Source of the DNA: Allobosea caraganae
GTDB lineage: Bacteria > Pseudomonadota > Alphaproteobacteria > Rhizobiales > Beijerinckiaceae
Direction of reading: 5' to 3'
NCBI RefSeq assembly: GCF_003351345.1
Contig: NZ_QQTO01000012.1
Span: 62,001 to 126,000 of the forward strand
DNA: 64,000 bases
Shown here: in pieces, positions 19,922-26,786 of the stretch
Numbering within the stretch: position 1 is the first letter of the stretch
Layout: each line of letters begins with the position of its first letter
Notes under the pieces: model-generated
The model's input: only the letters and a program-made list of their open reading frames with translations
Told to the model about the DNA's origin: nothing
The model's database searches: none
Program-made: the position numbers and the translations under genes

Positions 19922-20308
19922 ATGCCATCGACAAGACTAGGGCTGGCAGCCGCACTGCTGCTGGCGGCCTCGGCTCCGGCCTCCGCACTCGACAGGACGG
20001 TCAAAAGCGGCGCCGAGCAGATGATCGGCATTCACGGCACTATCAGCAATCAAACCTGCGAGTCGGGAGGCGGGCTGCCGACGCTGACCGAGAGACCTGC
20101 TCATGGCAGCGTCGAATTCCGGTCGCAGATGTTTCGGGTCACGAATACGAGCTCCCAGTGCCATGGCCGGCCGTATCGGGGCTATGGCATCTACTATCGC
20201 TCGCATCCGGGGTTCCGCGGCATCGACCGCGCGGTGATCTCGACGTTTGTGTTCAACGGCCGCACCGATGTGAGGACCGACCACACCGTGAATATCAGGG
20301 TGCAATAG
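19922..20308 (+). CDS. hypothetical secreted protein
   Basis: A 128-residue protein with a clear signal peptide (residues 1-22, APASA). The mature part is short, basic and beta-rich, with two cysteines (NQTCESGGG and SSQCHGRPY) that may form a disulfide. The ending YRSHPGFRGIDRAVIST with a later VNIRVQ resembles the conserved tail of small periplasmic proteins in related genomes, but I cannot name a family. GGGGAGG before the ATG is a strong ribosome site. It is convergent with the uracil-DNA-glycosylase-family gene. Confidence 0.65.
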   Translation: MPSTRLGLAAALLLAASAPASALDRTVKSGAEQMIGIHGTISNQTCESGGGLPTLTERPAHGSVEFRSQMFRVTNTSSQCHGRPYRGYGIYYRSHPGFRGIDRAVISTFVFNGRTDVRTDHTVNIRVQ

Positions 20309-20316
20309 CGCTCCGC

Positions 20317-20955
20317 TCACCCCACCAGCCGCGCCACGTCCGCGCGCAGCACCGGCAGCAGTTCGGCCTCGAACCAGGGATTGCGCCGGAGCCAGGCGTT
20401 GTTGCGCCAGGAGGGGTGCGGCAGCGGCAGGATGCGCGGGCGGCGCGGCGCGGACAGGATCGCGCGCCAGTCGGCGACGGTCTCCGACAGTTTCGCGCCG
20501 GCCTTGGGGCCGAGATGCCAGGCCTGGGCATAGCGGCCGACGACAAGGATCAGCTCGATCGCCGGCAAGGCGGCGAAGACGCGCGCGTGCCAGATCGGAG
20601 CGCATTCGCGCCTGGGCGGCAGGTCGCCGCCATGGGCGTCGTAGCCGGGAAAGCAAGCGCCCATCGGCACGATCGCGACTTTGCTCTCGTCATAGAAGAC
20701 ATCCTCGCCAATGCCGAGCCAGGAGCGCAGCCTGACGCCGGAGGGGTCGGTGAAGGGCCGGCCGCTGGCATGGACCCGGATGCCCGGCGCCTGGCTGGCG
20801 ACGCAGAGCCGCGCCGTGACCGCAGCCTGGATCACCGGGCGCGGCTCATGCGGCAGCGGCGGCTGAAAACGCGGCTCGTCGCGGCAGACGCGGCAGGCGC
20901 GCAGCTCTGTCAGGACGGCGTCGAGCGTCTCGGGGCCGGCCGCGGGCGCGCTCAT
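20317..20955 (-). CDS. uracil-DNA glycosylase family protein
   Basis: A 212-residue protein of the uracil-DNA glycosylase superfamily. Near the N-terminus it has a CRVCRDEP pair of cysteines, then SQAPGIRVHASGRPFTDPSG (motif 1 region), a PMGACFPG segment and LPLPHPSWRNN (motif 3 with the active-site histidine). The superfamily removes uracil from DNA, but this branch is poorly characterised. It is the last gene of the operon; its ATG overlaps the stop of the preceding secreted-protein paralogue. Why a DNA repair-like enzyme is coupled to secreted proteins is unclear. Confidence 0.75.
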   Translation of the reverse strand: MSAPAAGPETLDAVLTELRACRVCRDEPRFQPPLPHEPRPVIQAAVTARLCVASQAPGIRVHASGRPFTDPSGVRLRSWLGIGEDVFYDESKVAIVPMGACFPGYDAHGGDLPPRRECAPIWHARVFAALPAIELILVVGRYAQAWHLGPKAGAKLSETVADWRAILSAPRRPRILPLPHPSWRNNAWLRRNPWFEAELLPVLRADVARLVG

Positions 20956-21443
20956 CGCGCAGCGAGCTGGCGGCGGCTCATCGCCGGGCCCTTGGCCGGC
21001 GCCTGCGAGATCATCCCGTCGCAGGTCCAGGGCTTGGAGCTCTGGGCAAACTTGTGCGGATCGCCGGGTTCGATCGTGGCGATGCCGTTGATGCGGCCAC
21101 TCGGGCGGCTGCGCAGGACGTAGAGGTTGCCGGAGAGGTCGACGTCGAAGCAATAGGTGCGGCGGCTTTCGGGCGGGCCGTAGTAATAGCAGACGCCGTC
21201 CGGCACCGTGATCCAGCAAGCGTCGGTGTTCGGAACATTGCGGTTATGCCCGGTCGCCCGGCCGTCGATCCCGTGATGCTCGCTGAAAGGCAGATTGTTG
21301 CCGCTATAGCGGCCGGTGACGGTGTTGCCTTCGAAGAGCTTCTGGAGTTGCGGGCCGGTCAGGCGCTCGACGGCGCCAGCGGACAGGTTCGAGCCAAACA
21401 GGAGGGCGACCGCCAGCGCGGCCATGATGGGCATCGTCTTCAT
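20952..21443 (-). CDS. secreted four-cysteine paralogue 6 of 6
   Basis: A 163-residue exported protein, most diverged of the six-member array. Signal peptide to about residue 25 (LSAGA). The shared core is present: LTGPQLQKLFEGNTVTGRY, a FSEHHGIDG block, DACWITVPDGVCYYYG, TYCFDVDLSGNLYVL, EPGDPHK, KPWTCDGMISQAP and the C-terminal SRRQLAAR. All four conserved cysteines are kept. The start at 21443 forms ATGA with the stop of paralogue 5, and its own stop overlaps the glycosylase-family start. Function unknown; the core pattern suggests a small lipocalin-like periplasmic domain. Confidence 0.75.
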   Translation of the reverse strand: MKTMPIMAALAVALLFGSNLSAGAVERLTGPQLQKLFEGNTVTGRYSGNNLPFSEHHGIDGRATGHNRNVPNTDACWITVPDGVCYYYGPPESRRTYCFDVDLSGNLYVLRSRPSGRINGIATIEPGDPHKFAQSSKPWTCDGMISQAPAKGPAMSRRQLAAR

Positions 21444-21925
21444 CGTGCTGCAAGACGCCGCGATTGCGGCACTCCCTGTTCCGGCGCCTGCGAGATCAGG
21501 CCGCCGCAATACCAAGGCTTGCCGTTGTCGGAAAGATGGCGGGGATTGCCCGGCTCGGCCGTAACGAAGGCGTCGTAGCTGCTACTCACGGTATGGTGCA
21601 GATGCAGCAGCTTGCCGATGGGCTGGACCCGGTAGCAATGCACCCGCTGCTGCTCCTGCGCGCCGTAATAGTAGCAGATCTGGTCGTCCTTGATCGTCCA
21701 GCAGGCGTCGGTGTTGGGCACGTTGCCGTTATGGCCGACCGCCTGGCCATTGGCGTCGTGGTATTCGCTGAAGAACTTGCCGTCCTTGAAGCGACCGCTG
21801 ACGGTATGGCCCTCGAAGGTCCGCCTGATATCCTCGCCGCTCATGCGGTCTTCCGCCTGGACCGGCGCTGCCAATCCATGCAGGAGCATGGCCACCACGA
21901 AGGCGATGACCCAGCCTGTCCTCAC
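21440..21925 (-). CDS. secreted four-cysteine paralogue 5 of 6
   Basis: A 161-residue member with a GTG start at 21925 that overlaps the upstream stop (GTGA). Signal peptide around residues 1-24 (VQAE). Core: MSGEDIRRTFEGHTVSGRF, FSEYHDANGQAVGHNG, DACWTIKDDQICYYYG, HCYRVQPIGKLLHL, AEPGNPRHL, KPWYCGGLISQAP, SRRLAAR. CDG becomes CGG here. It is the only copy that does not begin with ATG, so its translation probably depends on coupling to the previous gene. Confidence 0.75.
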   Translation of the reverse strand: MRTGWVIAFVVAMLLHGLAAPVQAEDRMSGEDIRRTFEGHTVSGRFKDGKFFSEYHDANGQAVGHNGNVPNTDACWTIKDDQICYYYGAQEQQRVHCYRVQPIGKLLHLHHTVSSSYDAFVTAEPGNPRHLSDNGKPWYCGGLISQAPEQGVPQSRRLAAR

Positions 21926-22401
21926 TGCGCCGCCGCCAGGCGCCGCGACATCGGCGCGCCCTGCCCCGGCGCCCTCGAGATCAGCCCGTCGCAGATCCAG
22001 GGCTTGCCATGGTCGCCGAGATTGCGCGGATTGCCGGGCTCGATGGTCACCGCGCCGGTGAGCTGCGGATCGGTGAGATGGCGCAGGACATAGAGCCGGC
22101 CGACGGCCTGCACGGTGTAGCAATGGGTGATCCGGCCGCGCAGCGGACCGTAATAGTAGCAGACATTATCGTTCCGGACGGTCCAGCAGGCGTCGGTGTT
22201 CTCGCCCCAGCCGCCATTGCCGAGCGCGCGGCCGTCCGTGGCGTGATACTCGCTGAAACGATTGCCAACGACGAAGCGGCCACTGACGGTGTTGCCGTCA
22301 AAGGCCTGGCGGATCTCGTCTCCCGTGAGGAATTGCTGCGCCATGGCCGGCGCGGCGAGGCCGAGCGCGAGAAGGGCCGCGATGGCGCGCAGCACCCTCA
22401 T
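21922..22401 (-). CDS. secreted four-cysteine paralogue 4 of 6
   Basis: A 159-residue member with signal peptide MRVLRAIAALLALGLAAP ending near AMAQ. Core: LTGDEIRQAFDGNTVSGRF, FSEYHATDGRALGNGG, DACWTVRNDNVCYYYG, HCYTVQAVGRLYVL, IEPGNPRNL, KPWICDGLISRAP, SRRLAAAQ. ATGA overlaps at both ends. The C-terminal Arg of the other copies is replaced by Ala-Gln. Confidence 0.8.
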   Translation of the reverse strand: MRVLRAIAALLALGLAAPAMAQQFLTGDEIRQAFDGNTVSGRFVVGNRFSEYHATDGRALGNGGWGENTDACWTVRNDNVCYYYGPLRGRITHCYTVQAVGRLYVLRHLTDPQLTGAVTIEPGNPRNLGDHGKPWICDGLISRAPGQGAPMSRRLAAAQ

Positions 22402-22886
22402 CGCGCCGCCAGGCGCCGCGACATCGGCGCTCCCCGCTCCGGCGCCTTCGAGATCAGGCCGTCGCAAGCCCAGGGCTTGCCGTTATCGGTGTGGTTTCGC
22501 GGGTTGCCGGGCTCGACCGTGACGATCGCGTTGATCTCGCCGTTGCTCGCGTTGCGCTGGACCTGGAGCGAACCGGTCTGCTCGACGGTGAAGCAATGCA
22601 CGGTGCGGTCGCTCGGCGGGCCGTAGTAGTAGCAGATCTGGTCTTCCTTGATGATCCAGCAGGCGTCGGCATTGGGCTCGTAGCCGTTGTTGCCGAGCGC
22701 GCGGCCGTCGAGGTCGTGATACTCGGTGAAGAAGCCGCCGCGCATATAGCGGCCGCTCACGGTGTTGCCCTGATAGGCTTGCCTGATCTGCTCGCCGGTC
22801 ATTTTCTCGGCTGCGCCGGCCGGCTGTCCAAGAGCGAGCAAGGCAAGCGCGGCGAGCGCCGCCATGGTGCGTCCCGACGTCATCAT
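22398..22886 (-). CDS. secreted four-cysteine paralogue 3 of 6
   Basis: A 162-residue member. The signal peptide ends near PAGAA (residue 26). Core: MTGEQIRQAYQGNTVSGRY, FTEYHDLDGRALGNNG, DACWIIKEDQICYYYG, HCFTVEQTGSLQVQ, VEPGNPRNHTDNGKPW, ACDGLISKAP, SRRLAAR. ATGA overlap with paralogue 2 upstream. Closest by eye to paralogue 2. Confidence 0.8.
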   Translation of the reverse strand: MMTSGRTMAALAALALLALGQPAGAAEKMTGEQIRQAYQGNTVSGRYMRGGFFTEYHDLDGRALGNNGYEPNADACWIIKEDQICYYYGPPSDRTVHCFTVEQTGSLQVQRNASNGEINAIVTVEPGNPRNHTDNGKPWACDGLISKAPERGAPMSRRLAAR

Positions 22887-23362
22887 CGCGCCGCCAGGCG
22901 CCGCGACAGCGGCGCTCCCTGCCCGGGCGCCTGCGAGATCAGCCCGTCGCAGACCCAGGGCTTGCCATTGTCGGTGTGACCGCGCGGGTTGCCGGGCTCG
23001 ACCGTCATCATGGCGTTGAGGCGCCCGCCATCGGCATCATGCTGAACATAAAGCCCGGCGGTGAGCTGCAAGGTGGAGCAATAGACCGTGCGCGCGCTCG
23101 GCGGGCCGTAATAATAGCAGATCTGGTCTTGCCTGATGGTCCAGCAGGCATCGGTATTGGTCTTCCAGCCGTTATAGCCAAGCGCCCGCCCGTCCGGGAG
23201 ATGGTATTCGGTGAAGGAGCCGCCCCAGGTATAGCGGCCGCTCACGGTGTTGCCCTCGAAGGCGCGCCTGATCTGCTCGCCGGTCAGCTTGTCCGCTGCG
23301 CCAGCCGGCTGGCTCAGCAGAGCGAGCGCGGCCATGGCCGCGAGGATGCCGATCCGCCTCAT
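22883..23362 (-). CDS. secreted four-cysteine paralogue 2 of 6
   Basis: A 159-residue member. Signal peptide to about residue 23 (PAGAA). Core: LTGEQIRRAFEGNTVSGRY, FTEYHLPDGRALGYNG, DACWTIRQDQICYYYG, YCSTLQLTAGLYVQ, VEPGNPRGHTDNGKPW, VCDGLISQAP, SRRLAAR. Overlaps the neighbouring genes by four bases at both ends. Confidence 0.8.
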   Translation of the reverse strand: MRRIGILAAMAALALLSQPAGAADKLTGEQIRRAFEGNTVSGRYTWGGSFTEYHLPDGRALGYNGWKTNTDACWTIRQDQICYYYGPPSARTVYCSTLQLTAGLYVQHDADGGRLNAMMTVEPGNPRGHTDNGKPWVCDGLISQAPGQGAPLSRRLAAR

Positions 23363-23829
23363 CGCGCCGCCAGACGCCGTGACAGCGGCGCTCCCCGTTC
23401 GGGCGCCTGCGAGATCAGCCCGTCGCAGACCCAGGGCTTGCCGCGGTCGGAATGCCCGCGCGGGTTGCCCGGCTCGACCGCGGCCAGCGCATCGACCTTG
23501 CCGTTGGCCGTGCTGCGCAACGCGTAGAGCCGGCCGGTCAACTCGATGGTGAAGCAGCTGACGACCCGCGCGCTGGGAGGACCGTAATAATAGCAGATCT
23601 CATCCGCCCTGACGGTCCAGCAGCCGTCGTCATTCTCGACGAGGCCGTTATTGCCGTAAGCCTGACCGCCGGCATCGTGATACTCGCTGAACGGATTGCC
23701 CCGGATGCCGCGGCCGCTCACGGTGTTGCCTTCGAAGGCCTGCCTGATCTGCGCGCCGGTCAGCGTCTCGACCGCCAGCGACGGCGCCGGCAGAGCGAGC
23801 AAGGCGGCGATCGCGACGGCAAGGCGCAT
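23359..23829 (-). CDS. secreted four-cysteine paralogue 1 of 6
   Basis: A 156-residue member, first of the array. Signal peptide MRLAVAIAALLALPAPSLA. Core: LTGAQIRQAFEGNTVSGRG, FSEYHDAGGQAYGNNG, DGCWTVRADEICYYYG, SCFTIELTGRLYAL, VEPGNPRGHSDRGKPW, VCDGLISQAP, SRRLAAR. Its ATG is two bases after the stop of the GST gene, so the array is read from the same transcript. Confidence 0.8.
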   Translation of the reverse strand: MRLAVAIAALLALPAPSLAVETLTGAQIRQAFEGNTVSGRGIRGNPFSEYHDAGGQAYGNNGLVENDDGCWTVRADEICYYYGPPSARVVSCFTIELTGRLYALRSTANGKVDALAAVEPGNPRGHSDRGKPWVCDGLISQAPERGAPLSRRLAAR

Positions 23830-23831
23830 GC

Positions 23832-24449
23832 TCAGGCGGCCCAGCTCGGCCGCGCCGCAAGCTCGCCGTGCCAGCGGCGGATATTGGCGAAATCCTCCGG
23901 CAGCGGGATGCGCGAGGGCCTCATGAAGTCGACGGCGATGCCGGCGGTGATGTCGGCCACAGTCATCAGCTCGCCGCACAGAAAGGGATTGGCCGCGAGC
24001 TGCAGGTCGAGGAGCAGGAGGTGGTCGTCGATCAGCTCGCGGTTGGCGTCGGCCCATTCCGGCACCTGATGCTCGAGCTCGACCATCGAGGGGTGGCTGT
24101 GGCGGAACACCGCCATGACGCTGGAGAACAGGCCGAGCTCGACGCGCCGGTTCCACATCTCGATCTGGCCCTGCTCCTTGGCGTCGCGGCCGAACAAGGC
24201 CGGCTCGGGATGCAGGCTCTCGAGATAGCGGCAGATCGCGATGGTCTCGGCCAAAGCCGTGCCGTCGTCGAGTTCGAGCACCGGCAGCCGCCGCATCGGG
24301 TTGATGCGGGTGAATTCCGGCGTGAGGTGCTCCTTCTTGGCGATGTCGACCGGGATCAGCTCGGGCAGCGCGATGCCCTTCTCGGCGAAGAAGATGCGGA
24401 CCCGCCGCGGATTGGGTGAGCGCCCGCCGTCATAGAGCCTCATCAGCAT
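23832..24449 (-). CDS. glutathione S-transferase family protein
   Basis: A 205-residue GST with an N-terminal thioredoxin-like domain (about 1-80: MRLYDGGRSPNPRRVRIFFAEKG, then the cis-proline RRLPVLELDDGTALAETIAI) and an all-helical C-terminal domain ending at the array. SPNPRR contains the serine/asparagine position used to activate glutathione in several bacterial classes. It is the first gene of the operon with six secreted paralogues. The start at 24449 follows GGGAGAAGGG; an ATG six bases further in is an equally possible start. Confidence 0.85.
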   Translation of the reverse strand: MLMRLYDGGRSPNPRRVRIFFAEKGIALPELIPVDIAKKEHLTPEFTRINPMRRLPVLELDDGTALAETIAICRYLESLHPEPALFGRDAKEQGQIEMWNRRVELGLFSSVMAVFRHSHPSMVELEHQVPEWADANRELIDDHLLLLDLQLAANPFLCGELMTVADITAGIAVDFMRPSRIPLPEDFANIRRWHGELAARPSWAA

Positions 24450-24617
24450 GTCCCTTCTCCCGCGCCGCAGCATCACGGCCGCATTCACGGTGCAGCAGGC
24501 GCGCTGTCAAGGTAAAGTCCCGACATCGCGGCGCAACCATGGCGGCCCGCCTCGCGCAGGCTGGTGACGGCTGCATGACAGGCTGAGCGCCCTATACAGC
24601 GCTGCCGCAACGTCCGT

Positions 24618-25178
24618 TCAAGACCCTCCGCGATTATGGCTCCGGCGCCAGGTTTCGGGCCGCTCGAAATTCAGCGCCCAGATGCCGCGATTGGCCGCCT
24701 TCGCCTCGGCCTCCTCGGAGCGATAGCCGCCATAGGACACGGCCTGGCCCTGGCGGACCATGGCGGCGTTGACGTCGCTCTCGCCCTGGCGGCAGCGGGC
24801 GAGCCCGCGGCCATAGCGGTCGGCCTTGCCGATCTCGCAGGTGACGAGGCCGCGCGACAGGAGATCGACCAGCGCACGGCGGGCGGCGCGGCCGCAATCG
24901 ACTTGCCCGCCGCTGCGGTCGGTGCAGCTCTGGCGATATTCCGGCGCGTCGATTCCCTCCAGCCGCAATTCCTCGCCGTTCAGCCGAAGCGAATCACCGT
25001 CGATCGCCTGGGCCGCGCCGGTGAGAGATCGCGCCGGGCCGAGCTTATATTGCAGCACCGCGCCGCCAATCGCCATAAGCCCAATGATTCCAAGGGCAAC
25101 GACGAGATCAACCGTCCGGCCGACGCGCCGCCAGCCGAAGGGTCCATAGCGGGATCGTCCGAATCCGAAGCGCGTCAT
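24618..25178 (-). CDS. membrane-anchored thermonuclease (SNase-like) family protein
   Basis: A 186-residue protein. One N-terminal helix (about 24-44) anchors it to the inner membrane, with the nuclease domain outside. Domain motifs: IDGDSLRLNGEELRLEGIDA (calcium-binding Asp and first catalytic Arg), GRAARRALVDLL, and DRYGRGLARC with the second catalytic arginine. Extra cysteines (RQSC, VDCGRAA, TCEIGK, ARC) may form disulfides typical of exported members. It is divergent from the histidine kinase gene across 87 bases. Confidence 0.85.
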   Translation of the reverse strand: MTRFGFGRSRYGPFGWRRVGRTVDLVVALGIIGLMAIGGAVLQYKLGPARSLTGAAQAIDGDSLRLNGEELRLEGIDAPEYRQSCTDRSGGQVDCGRAARRALVDLLSRGLVTCEIGKADRYGRGLARCRQGESDVNAAMVRQGQAVSYGGYRSEEAEAKAANRGIWALNFERPETWRRSHNRGGS

Positions 25179-25265
25179 CAGGAAGAGCTTAACGATTTTG
25201 AGACCATATTGACGAGCCGGGCGTGCGTGCTGCGTTGTCGGCTGAGAGGAAGTTGCGTCGCGACA

Positions 25266-26786
<1,521 letters not shown>

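Follow-up and report, generated by a model that had tools for sequence, protein, structure and literature searches.

Six overlapping paralogues in one array

The 64,000-nt stretch of Allobosea caraganae DNA analysed here (hereafter the window; contig NZ_QQTO01000012.1, positions 62,001 to 126,000) carries on its minus strand six intact open reading frames (ORFs) of 156-163 codons, which lie head to tail between 23829 and 20952 and belong to a single protein family. In the direction of reading these are copy 1 (23359..23829; 156 aa, with a signal-peptide-like start and four cysteines), copy 2 (22883..23362; 159 aa), copy 3 (22398..22886; 162 aa, the source protein of the structure model described below), copy 4 (21922..22401; 159 aa), copy 5 (21440..21925; 161 aa, with a GTG start) and copy 6 (20952..21443; 163 aa). 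Alignment of the six copies with MAFFT gave 49-62% identity to copy 1 and 45 invariant columns, among them the four cysteines and the motifs EPG.P, KPW.C.G.IS and SRR.LAA. Read by eye, all six N-termini consist of a short positive and hydrophobic stretch that runs up to an A-x-A-like site, with no lipobox cysteine. The original prediction had described this region as six tandem, secreted-looking paralogues with four cysteines each, and the intact ORFs, the signal-peptide-like starts and the alignment bear this out.

The copies are 43-67% identical to each other in pairwise codon alignments, and all six units were recovered as DNA repeats spaced 473-485 bases apart. This divergence, together with the orthologues present in Bosea sp. 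BK604 (see below), rules out an assembly artefact or duplication, as well as a recent unequal crossing-over. A protein search of the window genome returned the six array copies and one chance match (E 0.47), and no further copy.

Every junction inside the array is a 4-base overlap of stop and start codons (five of five; ATGA four times, and GTGA at the start of copy 5). The last copy overlaps the next gene in the same way: the stop of copy 6 shares an ATGA with the start of a uracil-DNA-glycosylase-superfamily (UDG) gene (20317..20955, minus strand; Pfam UDG, PF03167, E 1.5e-21). Upstream, a glutathione S-transferase (GST)-family gene (23832..24488, minus strand; Pfam GST_N_2, PF13409, E 2.1e-15) is separated from copy 1 by a 2-base gap, with no overlap; the Pfam matches agree with the neighbour identities proposed earlier. 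Gene spacing suggests that the array is cotranscribed with GST and UDG. No Shine-Dalgarno-like AGGAG was seen directly before the internal starts when the junction sequences were read by eye. A scan for promoters and terminators placed one promoter-like site within copy 3, as compared with 0.4 expected, and gave two terminator-like sites, as compared with 1.9 expected; we did not use these sites. The Rfam and tRNA scans gave no match.

The family has no curated model and we found no function for it. Neither Pfam nor NCBIfam matched the six window proteins above a curated cut-off, and Pfam gave no such match for the 38 family members in our profile. The sub-threshold matches were taken as chance: hemP for copy 1 (E 0.013), two NCBIfam models (E 0.19-0.24), Peptidase_S29 in 4/38 members (best E 0.0087) and five further Pfam models, each in a single member. 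We judged likewise the four chains returned by a PDB sequence search (E 0.23-0.54), two of which are uracil-DNA glycosylases matched over 34 residues. Among the titles and abstract beginnings of open-licence literature searched for Bosea tandem paralogues or lipocalins, no publication on this locus was found.

An enlarged form of a genus-wide cassette

The genomes grouped in one genus with the window genome agree with named Bosea records in both sequence and gene layout, which points to Bosea as that genus. The profile of 38 members (E 1e-15) found the family in at least 58 of 67 Bosea species. With six copies, the window genome has the highest count among them; one genome has four copies, nine have three, 42 have two, five have one and nine have none. 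Copy counts are lower bounds throughout, with up to 57 candidates scored per genome in the 67 Bosea species, up to 19 in the 199-genome sample and up to 12 in the order-wide search described below. In one of the nine three-copy species (G032) the second family gene is broken into two overlapping pieces (G032:C66:11012-11453); a second gene split in this way also occurs in a Bosea metagenome-assembled genome (MAG; L058, 5130-5583), which is perhaps the same genome. These may be pseudogenes or assembly errors.

In 39 of 40 loci from named records, mostly of Bosea, the order is GST, one to four family genes, UDG. A pair also exists outside Bosea, in a Hyphomicrobiales MAG (L067, 6462-7568, plus strand), with neither GST nor UDG as a neighbour; the second gene of that pair has a long C-terminal extension (368 aa in total) with two cysteines near its end. 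In a 199-genome sample of the taxonomic family at least 28 genomes matched at E 1e-10 or better, and outside Bosea never more than three copies were found. Two genomes of another genus (G142 and G347) have one family gene after GST, with UDG on a different contig, and a search at a looser threshold added one distant, dispersed relative each in two genomes (G011 and G044; E about 1e-6).

Nine Bosea genomes are family-free. Seven of them have GST and UDG matches on one strand with 52-139 bases between them, a distance too short to hold a family gene; of the remaining two, one (G040) has UDG but lacks a GST match at E 1e-30, and one (G028) has neither gene. Family-free GST-UDG pairs were also seen in two other genera (G298 and G315; 27 and 148 bases apart), and in the remaining genomes of the taxonomic family GST or UDG is absent, or the two lie apart. 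The adjacency of GST and UDG therefore exists with and without the cassette, and both insertion and loss per lineage are possible. The GST-(family)n-UDG locus is a standing feature of Bosea. Since most relatives carry two copies, the window array does not represent a new type of system; it is an old, genus-wide gene pair in enlarged form, with ordinary parts in an uncommon arrangement.

Two genes lie further upstream of the operon (24618-26786): a minus-strand gene for an SNase-family nuclease whose N-terminus is hydrophobic, and a divergent histidine kinase gene. Relatives of the nuclease and the kinase occur in 35/40 and 37/40 loci, respectively, so that the nuclease tends to accompany GST, the cassette and UDG. 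On the other side, a gene at 19922-20308 (plus strand) converges on the UDG gene and encodes a secreted-looking protein of 128 aa that Pfam does not match; this protein has a relative (38-59% identity), placed just after UDG, in 4/40 loci (L028, L029, L035 and L047).

A tree of 54 sequences, trimmed to the core, sorted the members of two-gene loci into diverged first-gene (A) and second-gene (B) types, in that order along the locus. Window copies 1-5 fell on the A side with moderate support (90/86) and copy 6 on the B side (100/98). Copies 4, 5 and 6 paired with copies 2, 3 and 4 of Bosea sp. BK604 (100/99, 100/99 and 100/96, respectively). In the three-copy species placed in the tree (L033, L034 and L035) it is the third gene that groups with the second genes. 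The family has therefore been duplicated more than once and in different members, on the A side in the window and BK604 and on the B side in the three-copy species. These duplications are not recent, given the low identity between the window copies and their 0.40-0.52 synonymous differences per site.

Selection was estimated as pairwise omega on the columns of the mature protein. Against their BK604 orthologues, copies 4, 5 and 6 gave 0.20, 0.38 and 0.11, and the window copies gave 0.37-0.69 among themselves. Over 204 genome pairs, drawn from 36 loci and not independent, the median omega was 0.22 for first genes, 0.30 for second genes ("second" by order, which in BK604 is an A-side copy), 0.18 for GST and 0.23 for UDG, and no pair exceeded 0.79 for first or second genes. 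First genes are thus constrained about as strongly as their enzyme neighbours and second genes somewhat less; the copies are old and under purifying selection. The two purposes proposed earlier for the expansion fare poorly here: copies that are only 43-67% identical do not look like a dosage amplification, and these pairwise estimates give no sign of diversifying selection between copies.

Much of this history could also be expected if old tandem duplications were kept by drift or mild benefit and all copies did one redundant job. Copy number varies from 0 to 6 between species, the A and B sides were duplicated separately, and omega never exceeds 1. On the other hand, all six ORFs are intact with every invariant residue, and copies 4, 5 and 6 keep orthologues in BK604 at low omega, so that they have been maintained as distinct genes. 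We regard redundancy of the copies as unlikely.

Gene overlaps and the case for translational coupling

The strict coupling attributed to the array in the original prediction stands as far as the 4-base overlap at each of its junctions is concerned, but nothing in this sets the array apart, as genes at this locus regularly overlap. Across the 40 loci (window included), family genes overlap each other by 4 or 1 bases at 48/49 junctions and overlap UDG by 4 bases at 38/39, and the distance from GST to the first family gene lies between -4 and +6 at 39/39; the scan took the start nearest to -4, which mildly favours that value, and left out the MAG locus with the split second gene (L058). These overlaps, being general, are a property of the locus. 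Moreover, most family genes end in CGATGA where the next gene begins, so that duplication of a whole unit copies the overlap with it.

This arrangement also bears on the conserved SRR.LA.R tail, for which the model described below has a mean pLDDT (predicted local distance difference test) score below 50 over residues 151-162. Its terminal arginine is largely explained by the overlap (CGATGA in 59/72 of the -4 junctions). An RNA-level constraint on the tail was not supported: in first genes synonymous codon variation there was 0.47, as compared with 0.24-0.54 elsewhere, and among window copies 1-5 the synonymous rate was 0.24 (n = 144), within the 0.18-0.58 of the other blocks. In first genes the tail is conserved at the protein level and not at the codon level.

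Stop and start codons overlapping by -4 or -1, the arrangement of termination-reinitiation pairs, are found at five of five array junctions and at the UDG junction. According to Huber et al., translation is coupled at overlaps of this type, and subunits of heteromeric complexes are over-represented among the genes so joined. In E. coli such subunits account for 30.4% of gene pairs spaced -8 to +10, as compared with 6.8% of pairs separated by more than 20 bases; in H. volcanii the figures are 45.2% and 5.6% (PMC10666635). The array has the same overlap types as the coupled pairs they describe; it differs in comprising six overlapping paralogues followed by a further overlap into an unrelated gene, and its own coupling is putative.

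By analogy, A- and B-type barrels might assemble into a hetero-oligomer whose subunit ratios are fixed by the overlaps, in which case the six-gene array would encode a complex with more kinds of subunits. In keeping with this, two genes are the commonest state (42/67 species), nearly all family-family junctions have the close spacing that is enriched for heteromeric subunits (PMC10666635), A and B consistently differ, and the pair is also found outside Bosea, in L067. Yet a partner is not strictly needed, as five Bosea species have one copy; the overlap also joins the array to UDG, whose product is expected to be cytosolic and hence no subunit; and tandem duplication of an ATGA-to-ATGA unit would copy the overlap without any selection for it. 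We therefore consider a hetero-oligomer improbable, though worth keeping in view. With its series of 0-6 copies, its family-free sites and its clear orthologues, the locus is well suited to asking how overlapping arrays grow by whole-unit duplication, and whether an overlap serves stoichiometry or is simply inherited.

Predicted fold and possible function

In the AlphaFold2 model of copy 3 a signal helix and a short helix (residues 31-38) are followed by eight strands (mean pLDDT 86.9, and about 90 or more over residues 31-140). The conserved cysteines are positioned on strands 4, 5 and 6 and in the C-terminal extension of the model. F53, E55 and H57 on strand 2 have zero entropy and are invariant in 38/38 members, as are W77, Y86 and Y88. 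Divergence among window copies 1-5, the signal peptide apart, peaks at residues 91-126 (0.60-0.67); it is 0.29-0.41 at residues 37-90 and lowest at residues 127-162 (0.19-0.23).

An order-wide profile search revealed a wider family of weak relatives (E 4e-12 to 1e-3) in at least 48 genomes outside the window family. They are scattered genes; at least two matches were found in 4/48 of these genomes, none of them adjacent. The barrel part could be aligned over 27 such sequences (profile-profile probability 99.7% to the window family), and in a superfamily alignment of 26 of them (L078 was left out) with seven window-family members a G, a W and a C...C pair are invariant. This uncurated alphaproteobacterial single-gene family (for example L071 and L086) shares with the window family the eight strands after a helix, the W and the C...C pair. 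It differs in lacking the C76/C141 pair and the conserved extension, in usually having Y at the H57 position and sometimes L at the E55 position, and in occurring as scattered genes rather than arrays. Ten of its members gave only sub-threshold matches in Pfam and NCBIfam, one of them to Lipocalin_4 (E 0.037). The original prediction was to fall if relatives always occurred as scattered single genes of known function; the wider relatives are indeed scattered single genes, but no curated family or function was found for the ten scanned.

The AlphaFold2 model of wider-family member L086 (pLDDT 90.2) also has a helix (residues 26-33) and eight strands, with two more short helices. Its structural matches include the Bacteroides lipocalin-like proteins, namely PDB 4i95 (Z 10.8; root-mean-square deviation (rmsd) 2.8, 94 aligned) and 4gzv (Z 10.3; rmsd 3.0, 94 aligned), as well as potempin E (Z 9.1; rmsd 3.3, 86 aligned) and TP0435 (Z 9.1; rmsd 2.5, 87 aligned). 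The Bacteroides proteins resemble the wider-family model in fold, at 5% sequence identity, and the window family has in addition a C-terminal extension and a second cysteine pair. The lipocalin-like barrel suggested at the outset is thus upheld as a prediction, and a calycin or lipocalin-like fold is the best assignment that the models suggest. Agroavidin is among the structural matches listed for the copy 3 model (Foldseek E 0.037; Z 6.7, rmsd 4.0, 92 aligned), and a search of viral structures returned nothing at E 0.001. A single DUF995 (PF06191) sequence reached a profile probability of 34.6% against the wider family and 3.6% against the window family; no Pfam match to DUF995 occurs in the window proteins, the 38 members or the window genome, and a search of open-licence literature for DUF995 found only unrelated work.

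Barrels of this shape have been put to several uses. Inh/I38 proteins, U-Omp19 among them, are likewise small eight-stranded barrels with a disulfide (PMC9486555), and the copies might be secreted protease inhibitors that together cover several proteases, in the manner of Inh/I38 proteins or potempins. The potempin E match of the wider family points this way, as do U-Omp19 matches for the wider family (Z 7.7; rmsd 3.1, 90 aligned) and the window protein (Z 6.2; rmsd 3.5, 88 aligned), the exported appearance of the proteins and their conserved cysteines. We nevertheless think this distinctly unlikely. A profile of 19 Inh sequences of the order (from 20 fetched loci, L102 being left out for its unexpected length, among 45 Inh matches listed) gave a probability of 0.8% against the window family and 2.3% against the wider family, so that no sequence-profile relation is apparent, and Pfam Inh (PF02974) matched 0/38 members at E 1 or better. 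In Inh the disulfide is described as linking the loop that follows strand 3 back to strand 2 (PMC9486555), elsewhere than the cysteine positions of our predicted model, and none of the eight operon genes encodes a protease. The window genome (G000) does have three Inh (PF02974) domain matches (G000:C5:105501-106166 and 73989-74264), two of them adjacent in one 605-aa frame, apparently a tandem-domain Inh protein unrelated to the array.

The invariant E, H, Y, Y and W face might instead be the active site of a small enzyme, as in the calycin-type phenolic acid decarboxylases. Its residues are conserved in all 38 members, and the structure comparisons weakly matched such decarboxylases (Foldseek E 0.051; Z 5.9, rmsd 4.2, 101 aligned). 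The wider family, however, tolerates replacements at the H57 and E55 positions, a Z below 8 is unspecific, and a sequence match is absent, which makes an enzyme very improbable.

The explanation that we favour, tentatively and at a little under even confidence, is that the array encodes related exported calycin-fold binding proteins that are made together and combine a common chemistry with a copy-specific preference. One mRNA would run from GST to UDG, and ribosomes moving along it would terminate and reinitiate at each ATGA or GTGA overlap, giving the copies in linked amounts. The Sec pathway would then export them to the periplasm or the outside, where the mature protein is predicted to be a small eight-stranded calycin or lipocalin-like barrel with an N-terminal helix. 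The invariant C85/C98 (P0003 numbering) would form the disulfide of the superfamily, and the family-specific C76/C141 pair may staple the conserved C-terminal extension (EPGNPR...KPW.CDGLIS) to the barrel. Alternation along the strands suggests that the invariant residues of strands 2-5 (F53, E55, H57, W77, Y86 and Y88) face inward, so that one polar-aromatic pocket, and with it one binding chemistry, may have been kept; strands 6-8 and the loops, the parts most divergent between copies, would give each copy its own preference.

Several observations weigh against these binding proteins. De novo designed barrels reach Z 8.7 in the L086 list, so that part of the structural signal is the common arrangement of barrels; the best structural match of the copy 3 model has Z 7.2, within the range that the tool calls unspecific (Z < 8). 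Foldseek gave no match at E 0.001 or better for either model, and no curated lipocalin model matches the six window proteins or the 38 members. The inward face and the cysteine pairing are deduced from conservation and the order of the strands, and the block that contains C141 has a mean pLDDT of 59. In the tree, support for exactly where copies 1-3 belong is weak, copy 1 forming a long branch. Barrels of the same fold, moreover, can be protease inhibitors or pocketless packed cores, as reported for U-Omp19 (PMC9486555).

A more elaborate possibility, which we consider quite unlikely, is that the products form either a graded set of different barrels or a hetero-oligomer with as many as six subunit types, in ratios that would be metered by six successive reinitiations and wired to the output of a DNA-repair gene.

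Tandem lipocalin expansions occur in animals, and if the copies bind different ligands the array would be an unusual bacterial counterpart of them. A family enlarged in one alphaproteobacterial lineage is also described in Rhodoplanes, where the expansion concerns 434 solute-binding-protein genes (PMC5994714), as compared with the six genes of the window, which form one overlapping array.

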